Part shown: in pieces, positions 20,783-21,890 of the stretch
Layout of the letters: each line of letters begins with the position of its first letter
Position numbering within the stretch: position 1 is the first letter of the stretch
DNA from: Rhodothermales bacterium
Lineage (GTDB): Bacteria; Bacteroidota; Rhodothermia; Rhodothermales; JANQRZ01
DNA length: 64,000 bases
Reading direction: 5' to 3'
Assembly: GCA_028284265.1 (NCBI GenBank)
Contig: JANQRZ010000011.1
Location: 62,001-126,000 of the forward strand
Position numbers and translations under genes: made by a program
The notes under the pieces: model-generated
Database searches by the model: none
Seen by the model: the letters and a program-made list of their open reading frames with translations, nothing else
Told to the model about the DNA's origin: nothing

Positions 20783-21890
20783 CTAGTCCTGTCCGAGCCC
20801 TTCCTGCAAGAGGAAGGCTTTGATGAACGGTTCGAGGTCGCCGTCCATGACGCCCTGCACATCGGTGATCTTGACCTCGGTGCGGTGGTCGTTGACCATC
20901 GTGTAGGGCTGGAAGACGTAGGACCGAATCTGGCTCCCCCACTCGATTTTTTTCTTGCCCGCCTCCTGCGCATTCTTCGCCGCCTCCTGAATCTCGCGCT
21001 CCAACTGGTAGATGCGACTCTTGACCATCTGCAAAGCCCGGTCGCGGTTCTGAAGTTGGGAGCGCTGCTCCGTGGACTCGGCGACGACGCGGGCCTCCTC
21101 CCCATTCGAGAGTTGGCCCGTCCAGATGTAGCGCGCGCCGGTCTCGACCTTGTTGACGTTCTGCCCACCCTTGCCGCCGGAGCGGAAGGTCTGAAGTTCT
21201 AGCTCGTCGGGCTTCACCTCGACCTCGATGGAGTCGTCGATTTCGGGGTAGACGAAGACGCTCGTGAACGACGTGTGGCGGCGGCCCGACGAGTCGAACG
21301 GCGAGATGCGGACGAGGCGGTGGACGCCGTTCTCGGCTTTGAGATAACCGTAGGCGAAGCGCCCGGCCACGCGGAGCGAGGCGCTCTTGATGCCCGCGCC
21401 CTCGCCGGGCTGGTACTCGACCATCTCGGGTTTGTAGCCCTCGCGTTCGGCCCAGCGGGTGTACATCCGCAGCAGCATCTCGCCCCAGTCCTGCGCTTCG
21501 GTCCCGCCCGCGCCGGGGTGGATCGTCAGGATCGCATCGCGGTGGTCGTCCGGCCCGGCAAGCATACCGCGCAGTTCGAGCGCGTCGAGCGCACGGGCAA
21601 GTTTCGCAGCTTCTCGTTCGATCTCCCCGGACAGGTCGGCCCCCGGGTCCTCGGCCTGCATCTCCTCCAGCGTCTCGATGTCCTCCTGCATCGCCACGAG
21701 CCGGTCGTAGGCTTCGACCCAATCCTTCTCGGCGGCGATGTCCTGCTCGACCTGCTGCGCGGCTTGGGGGTCGTCCCAGAACGTGGGATCGAGGCGTTGC
21801 TGCTTTAGACCTTCTAGCTTCTCGCGTCGCTGGGCAACGTCAAAGATAGCCTCCGAGCGCGGTGACACGCTCTACGAGTTGGGCATCCAT
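20783..21890 (-). CDS. prfB: Peptide chain release factor 2 with programmed +1 frameshift
   Basis: Class I release factor reading UAA and UGA. Translation starts at the ATG at 21890 and runs 16 codons (MDAQLVERVTALGGYL) to an in-frame TGA at 21840-21842. The site reads CTT-TGA-C with an internal GGAGG at 21850-21854 just before it, the known RF2 autoregulatory +1 frameshift signal. After the shift the frame continues DVAQRREKLEG and gives 368 residues, matching the family length. The GGQ motif (RSGGKGGQNVNKVE) and the RF2-type GGTEAQDW are present. An annotation that starts at the internal GTG (MSPRSEAIFDV) would miss the true N-terminus. Confidence 0.95.

Follow-up and report, generated by a model that had tools for sequence, protein, structure and literature searches.

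A conserved hairpin beside the Shine-Dalgarno-like element of the prfB frameshift site in a Rhodothermales bacterium and other Bacteroidota

Introduction

Frameshifting in prfB, the gene coding for the release factor RF2, represents the classic bacterial case of a +1 shift and is explained by pairing between a Shine-Dalgarno (SD) element of the mRNA and the anti-SD. In the E. coli-type arrangement, a short reading frame (ORF0) meets an early in-frame TGA in the string CTT-TGA-C, an SD-like element lies 3 nt upstream, and RF2 continues in the +1 frame. A premature stop in prfB is given for 8,164 of 12,753 genomes in the accessible part of one paper (PMC12421855). Taken together, the available passages of four papers name the SD, the spacer codon, the CUUU and the fourth-base C as elements of the RF2 site (PMC12421855, PMC5009743, PMC13245932, PMC3711429); an upstream hairpin is mentioned neither in those passages nor in the ones available from PMC8710568. 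A search of the literature, covering full texts in part, retrieved no natural hairpin at an RF2 site, which does not prove its absence from print.

Two described systems come close to such an element. In the available portion of PMC6321510, a synthetic hairpin upstream of CUUUGA gave in vitro about 60% of the +1 stimulation of the SD with which it was compared, and only without RF2; it was an engineered, GC-rich stem of 12 bp. Like it, the hairpins described below lie on the E-site side, 5' of CUUUGA, and the type found at SD-less sites is the closest to it; they differ in that they are natural, measure 4-8 bp, are usually accompanied by an SD, and are predicted from sequence. The 5' stem-loop of T4 gene 60, according to the accessible text of PMC5009743, is a hairpin at the mRNA exit for which a 5'-ward pull on the mRNA was proposed; there the ribosome bypasses a gap in the coding sequence of a phage gene, whereas at the RF2 site, in a housekeeping gene, it slips by a single base.

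As for the Bacteroidia, the passages available from PMC8710568 state that SDs are rare at gene starts and that the SD is retained in prfB, as exemplified by Flavobacterium johnsoniae, a member of the Bacteroidota like the organism studied here; the ribosomes occlude the anti-SD, the frameshift is kept despite this sequestration, and unknown cis elements or trans factors were postulated. Those passages do not mention a hairpin; a primer sequence printed there for F. johnsoniae contains the same hairpin arms as G399 (see below).

In this work we analysed a stretch of 64,000 nucleotides (hereafter, the window) from a Rhodothermales bacterium (assembly GCA_028284265.1, 3.69 Mb; contig JANQRZ010000011.1), whose prfB site shares the E. 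coli-type elements and differs in that here, as in relatives, a conserved hairpin abuts the SD.

Materials and Methods

The sample consisted of 277 prfB sites, 234 with the frameshift (FS+) and 43 without it (FS-). The former comprised 77 sites from the order of the window, 73 from the rest of its class, 64 from other Bacteroidota and 20 called outgroups; the corresponding FS- figures were 10, 0, 28 and 5. The groups were set by us, L005-L008 being assigned to the own order by identity (65-71%). Three loci without hairpin (L009, L010 and L020) were first counted as outgroups and later moved, on the basis of title or phylum, to the Bacteroidota, whose FS+ sites rose from 214 to 217 while those of the outgroups fell from 20 to 17. 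The site of the window itself (L085) is among the 214, as is that of L282, a second copy of prfB; L171, L230 and L242 (no RF2 hit) and the truncated L283 were left out.

For each site, hairpins that end close to the SD were sought within the 27 nt 5' of it and the score of the best one was taken, a score of 13 or more being called a strong stem. The null consisted of 400 synonymous recodings with the codon usage of the gene itself, and windows from the gene body served as a second comparison.

Results and Discussion

The prfB frameshift site of the window

The prfB gene lies on the minus strand. Its start codon, ATG, is at 21890-21888, and ORF0 (21840..21890) runs from there to an in-frame TGA, coding for 16 residues (MDAQLVERVTALGGYL). 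An SD-like element, GGAGGC (21849..21854, minus), stands 3 nt upstream of the shift codon; the following stretch (21839..21848, minus) includes the spacer TAT, the shift codon CTT (21845-21843), which is codon 16, the TGA (21842-21840) and the fourth-base C (21839). The +1-frame ORF (20783..21841, minus) codes for RF2 from Asp17 to the stop; its product scored 448 bits against the NCBIfam prfB profile TIGR00020 (cut-off 370), and its top PDB matches are solved RF2 chains. If CTTT is read as one step, a single RF2 of 368 residues results, with the stop at 20783, and no further in-frame CTTT was found in that frame. All the sequence elements of a prfB +1 programmed frameshift site are therefore present, i.e., the early stop after CTT, the fourth-base C, the SD 3 nt upstream and RF2 in the +1 frame.

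The top-scoring relative is a Rhodothermus MAG (L005; 70% identity). The same frameshift site occurs in one genus mate and in one family mate, and this identity indicates that it is not a stray indel; an indel or a pseudogene as the cause of the in-frame TGA was ruled out by the conservation of the site in relatives. A relative without the frameshift (L006) has a similar N-terminus and continues uninterrupted through the junction residues (MDDLIERVDALARYL-DLDARRQRLEAL), so that relatives do not align only from the internal GTG.

The initial annotation had described the ATG at 21890, the 16 codons, CTT-TGA-C, the upstream GGAGG and the +1 frame into RF2, all of which we found on the minus strand. 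Its reading of the site as a programmed +1 frameshift of prfB agrees with the recurrence of CTT-TGA in relatives and with the uninterrupted alignment of L006 through the junction. It had also stated that a gene call from the internal GTG loses the first 16 residues; this holds, but it is incomplete, since the ORF from that GTG (21868) also gains nine wrong residues (MSPRSEAIF). The prfB of the window is thus supported as a standard, textbook RF2 +1 programmed frameshift; the hairpin described below is the part that goes beyond that annotation.

Some variants were observed among the surveyed loci. One relative harbors a second, diverged prfB (L282, G010:C34:1520-2533; 46% identity) with its own GGGAGG-CAT-CTT-TGA-C site. 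In an Ignavibacteriales MAG (L020) and in Monoglobus (L310), both called FS+, CTT-TAA replaces CTT-TGA, and these may be UAA versions of the frameshift; in L259 (G228) the site reads CTT-TGA-T, without the usual C after the stop. A weak PCRF match (PF03462) in L003 (G000:C8:22388-22627) falls in an open frame of 941 residues, a size that argues against a release factor. The Rfam search of the window gave no match. In viral contigs, seven loci carry AGGGGGTATCTTTGAC, none of which is prfB by its printed translation, and a scan of viral proteins retrieved one partial relative without its N-terminus.

A hairpin abutting the SD-like element

The sequence GAGCGTG-TCAC-CGCGCTC directly abuts GGAGGC and can form a hairpin of 7 bp, including one G-U (21855..21872, minus), with the 5' arm GAGCGTG at 21872-21866, the loop TCAC at 21865-21862 and the 3' arm CGCGCTC at 21861-21855; the stem begins 15 nt after the ATG codon. 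It is present in the predicted MFE structure of the 90-nt context, a fold that is ordinary as a whole (z -1.02) and in which part of the SD is paired. Taken singly, the hairpin of the window is not striking (synonymous P of 0.030 and 0.055, MFE P of 0.103 and 0.125, in two runs); it is, however, conserved and covarying in relatives. Position and stem place the predicted hairpin on the E-site side of CUUUGA, as is the case for the type-2 hairpin described below.

The contact with the SD might suggest that the hairpin acts as an insulator, keeping the SD free of upstream mRNA for the 16S tail, a role suggested for the 5' stem-loops of another frameshift site, that of BYDV, in the available text of PMC5009743. 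Under this reading the SD should be more accessible than in synonymous shuffles, but its predicted accessibility was not clearly higher (0.244 vs. 0.272 in the own order, 0.247 vs. 0.362 in the rest of the class, 0.417 vs. 0.406 in other Bacteroidota), and the sites lacking the SD would be left unexplained; we consider an insulator quite improbable.

Stem strength and presence of the frameshift

The survey revealed a mean stem score of 14.9 in the 234 FS+ sites, against 7.8 in recoded sequences and 6.5 in the gene body; these sites are not phylogenetically independent, most of those of the class were found with patterns requiring an SD, and some genomes were counted twice (L005/L205, L008/L211). 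In the 43 FS- sites the mean was 6.9, with 6.9 in recoded sequences and 6.5 in the gene body. A P of at most 0.05 was reached by 138 of the 234 FS+ sites against synonymous recodings and by 179 against the gene body; the corresponding FS- figures were 2 and 4 out of 43. The hairpin is therefore absent from most FS- genes: strong stems occur in 184 of the 217 Bacteroidota FS+ sites vs. 4 of the 38 FS- ones and, within the own order, in 76 of 77 vs. 2 of 10 (L248 and L250, which keep the stem). When RF2 clusters at 70% identity were represented by one site each, 38 of the 41 Bacteroidota FS+ clusters lay above the null (Wilcoxon, 9e-10; 37 of 37 before the regrouping of L009, L010 and L020), compared with 6 of the 11 FS- clusters (p 0.58). 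The outcome had been similar in a previous run with 196 sites.

The position of the stem is also fixed. Although a gap of up to 3 nt was allowed, the 190 FS+ sites scoring at least 13 have either no nucleotide (140) or one (50) between stem and SD, and in a positional profile of representatives (88 FS+, 21 FS-) only the FS+ sites show a maximum at the SD edge.

Codon usage and covariation in the stem

In the FS+ genes of the own order, the third codon positions within the stem are almost invariable: Ala-6 is encoded by GCG in 42 cases out of 42 (expected fraction 0.29), Thr-6 by ACG in 24 out of 24 (0.43), Leu-5 by CTC in 75 out of 77 (0.31) and Glu-10 by GAG in 70 out of 70 (0.57). The control Leu-12, two codons 5' of the stem, is not frozen in the same genes (CTC in 17 of 74; expected 0.31). 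In FS- genes, GCG encodes Ala in 6 of 18 cases (0.21) and CTC encodes Leu in 13 of 28 (0.29).

The alignment of 134 distinct sequences of the class, most of them found with a pattern requiring an SD-like hexamer, has such a hexamer at the SD position, and pairing holds in 86.0% of the cells of its 7-bp stem. Covariation scored 0.207 vs. 0.141 in shuffled alignments (none of 500 reached it) and at most 0.113 in slid registers; two of the five measures in this test were no higher than in the shuffles. RNAalifold predicted no structure from all 134 rows. From 37 rows of the own order, chosen by eye for spread among 70 distinct ones (33 were omitted, including L222, L280, L281 and L282), it predicted the hairpin, with six pairs kept in 37 of 37, together with a second helix in which the SD pairs with the slippery CTTT. 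According to parsimony on the RF2 tree, pairing at the most variable of the inner six pairs survived 10 double and 19 single changes and was broken by 14; at the loop-closing pair, breaks exceed pairing-kept changes (20 vs. 13). Different stems occupy the same place even within one genus (GAGTAC/GTACTC in L222, GAGCAC/GTGCTC in L280 and L281) and in other clades (CAGCGC/GCGCTG; GGACC/GGTCC vs. GGACA/TGTCC; AAAGCC/GGCTTT). Selection on the hairpin structure, beyond the encoded amino acids, is well supported by these sequence comparisons.

The inverted repeat might instead be a by-product of a conserved RF2 peptide (E-R-x-x-A-L), maintained by coding or nascent-peptide selection and with no role of the RNA, given that this peptide is conserved in the class and that GAG CGN .. 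GCG CTC are complementary by an accident of the code. The hairpin, though, lies far above a null that preserves the amino acids, the freezing of third positions seen in FS+ genes is for the most part not shared by FS- genes, and other clades combine other peptides with other stems (L222, L156, L067, L044, L301), so that we give this explanation very little credit.

It is also conceivable that the hairpin acts elsewhere, i.e., in initiation at the nearby ATG (the stem starts 15 nt after it), in transcription pausing or in mRNA decay, or that it is a DNA-binding palindrome, as constraint on the RNA and constraint on the DNA look alike in a test at the level of codons. Any such function appears unlikely in view of the fixed position at the SD edge, of the 8 out of 10 own-order FS- prfB genes that have no strong stem, and of the tolerance of G-U pairs, which fits RNA.

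Sites lacking the SD in Flavobacteriaceae

The F. johnsoniae primer given in the accessible part of PMC8710568 agrees in sequence with the prfB context of G399, whose family was on this basis taken as Flavobacteriaceae. In 42 of the 397 genomes of this family we found a pattern in which CAV replaces the second SD codon. Fifty SD-less loci were fetched, 30 being the matches listed for the CAV pattern and 20 being chosen by eye, including the two clearest covarying ones; 49 were confirmed as RF2 and 40 are distinct (L348 was dropped). We distinguished the SD-adjacent hairpin (type 1) from one whose 3' arm takes the place of the SD (type 2).

The type-1 hairpin is absent from the SD-less sites (3.8 vs. 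5.5 in recoded sequences; 0 of 40 significant). The type-2 hairpin scored 12.4 vs. 5.9, with P of at most 0.05 in 26 of the 40 sites, whose sequences mostly look closely alike; among the 29 usable loci of the 30 listed for the CAV pattern, P was at most 0.05 in 20 and at most 0.1 in 27. Arg-9 is CGC in 34 of 40 (expected 0.16), and variant stems still pair (GTCTA/TAGAC in L365, GCTTAAG/CTTAAGC in L366); the hairpin is missing in L358, L359, L368 and L371. The stem Leu-8 (36 of 38) is no more biased than the control Leu-12 (CTN in 38 of 40; expected 0.48), ten SD-containing Flavobacteriaceae sites also lie somewhat over the type-2 null (11.3 vs. 8.9), and codon -4 is AGG in 35 of 38, which may be a relic of the SD. 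These data are suggestive of a type-2 hairpin in place of the lost SD in most SD-less sites. Naeem is said to have reported in 2024 that, in F. johnsoniae, an SD-less site from Winogradskyella and the native site work equally well, an activity that the type-2 hairpin could explain.

Sites outside the Bacteroidota

Strong stems were retrieved in 6 of the 17 outgroup FS+ sites, namely in all four Alphaproteobacteria and in E. coli and Enterobacter; as a set, the outgroup FS+ sites were not significant (p 0.28; 18 clusters, before regrouping). The alphaproteobacterial stems scored 17-21, with synonymous P of 0.025-0.092, and consist of AGCAG-type hairpins of 7-8 bp before AGGAGG, with varying inner pairs (L299, L301, L306, L308); Alphaproteobacteria are thought to use SD initiation. 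The E. coli and Enterobacter stems scored 14 and 13 (synonymous P 0.17). By eye, one beta-proteobacterium has AGCGCG/CGCGCT. No strong hairpin was found in the five Bacillota FS+ sites, in Aeromonas and Legionella, or at four single sites from other phyla; one is also missing from Kapabacteria, Ignavibacteria and others.

Use of the SD in the lineage

In the window, an SD precedes the start of 3 of the 45 ORFs, and a control position gave 5 of 45, the start being taken, in these counts, as the naive first ATG, GTG or TTG. The same holds for the own-order loci (27 of 295 vs. 29 of 295) and for the other loci of the class (28 of 331 vs. 31 of 331), whereas 49 kb of E. coli gave, by the same method, 15 of 31 vs. 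1 of 31. Gene starts in the lineage of the window show no SD use. The remark of the initial annotation, that an SD is kept in prfB where most starts of the window lack one, is borne out by these counts and agrees with the available passages of PMC8710568.

An exception is rpsU (coding for bS21) of the host genome, where GGAGG lies 5 nt upstream of the TTG that serves as start (L004:1479-1491; G000:C16), in line with what the accessible text of PMC9976891 reports for rpsU of Bacteroidota. Sequestration of the anti-SD would mean a 16S tail with CCTCC that is bound by bS21, bS18 and bS6. The bS21 gene is present in the host genome; 16S rRNA was not found by Rfam in that genome, nor in a search of three genomes, and the 16S tail (...GGATCACCTCCTA) is visible in 1 of the 117 class genomes.

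These counts bear on the simplest reading, that of a plain E. coli-type frameshift in which the SD does the work and the hairpin is neutral or a minor tuner. The canonical CTTTGAC plus SD and the five Bacillota FS+ sites without a strong hairpin speak in its favor; against it stand the strength of selection on the stem, the SD-less sites with a relocated hairpin and gene starts that make no use of the SD, and we assign to it a small, though not negligible, chance.

A possible role of the hairpin in the frameshift

The hairpin 5' of the slip site probably helps the slip. We favor the reading, to which we give a probability of roughly 0.65, that, with the ribosome paused at UGA, the hairpin forms again behind it and promotes slippage into the +1 frame, either in support of SD-anti-SD pairing or in its stead. 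From the patterns described above we infer both the stimulation and its manner: the hairpin, whose 3' arm ends 0-1 nt 5' of the SD, would re-form as the mRNA exits the ribosome and would then either block backward movement or zip its last pairs and pull the mRNA 5'-ward. Either effect may favor a forward slip of one base, jointly with SD-anti-SD pairing; in those Flavobacteriaceae whose sites lost the SD, this task may have passed to a hairpin that places its 3' arm where the SD used to be.

More tentatively, and with somewhat less than even confidence, we propose that a natural hairpin represents a third element of RF2 frameshifting in much of the Bacteroidota and, convergently, in part of the Pseudomonadota, and that in the SD-less Flavobacteriaceae it may have replaced SD-anti-SD pairing, so that RNA structure alone would drive a regulated +1 slip.

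Conclusions

A conserved hairpin at this place would offer a simple and testable answer to the question of how the Bacteroidia keep the RF2 frameshift despite an occluded anti-SD. The SD-less sites, where one duplex may have given way to another, represent a natural experiment.
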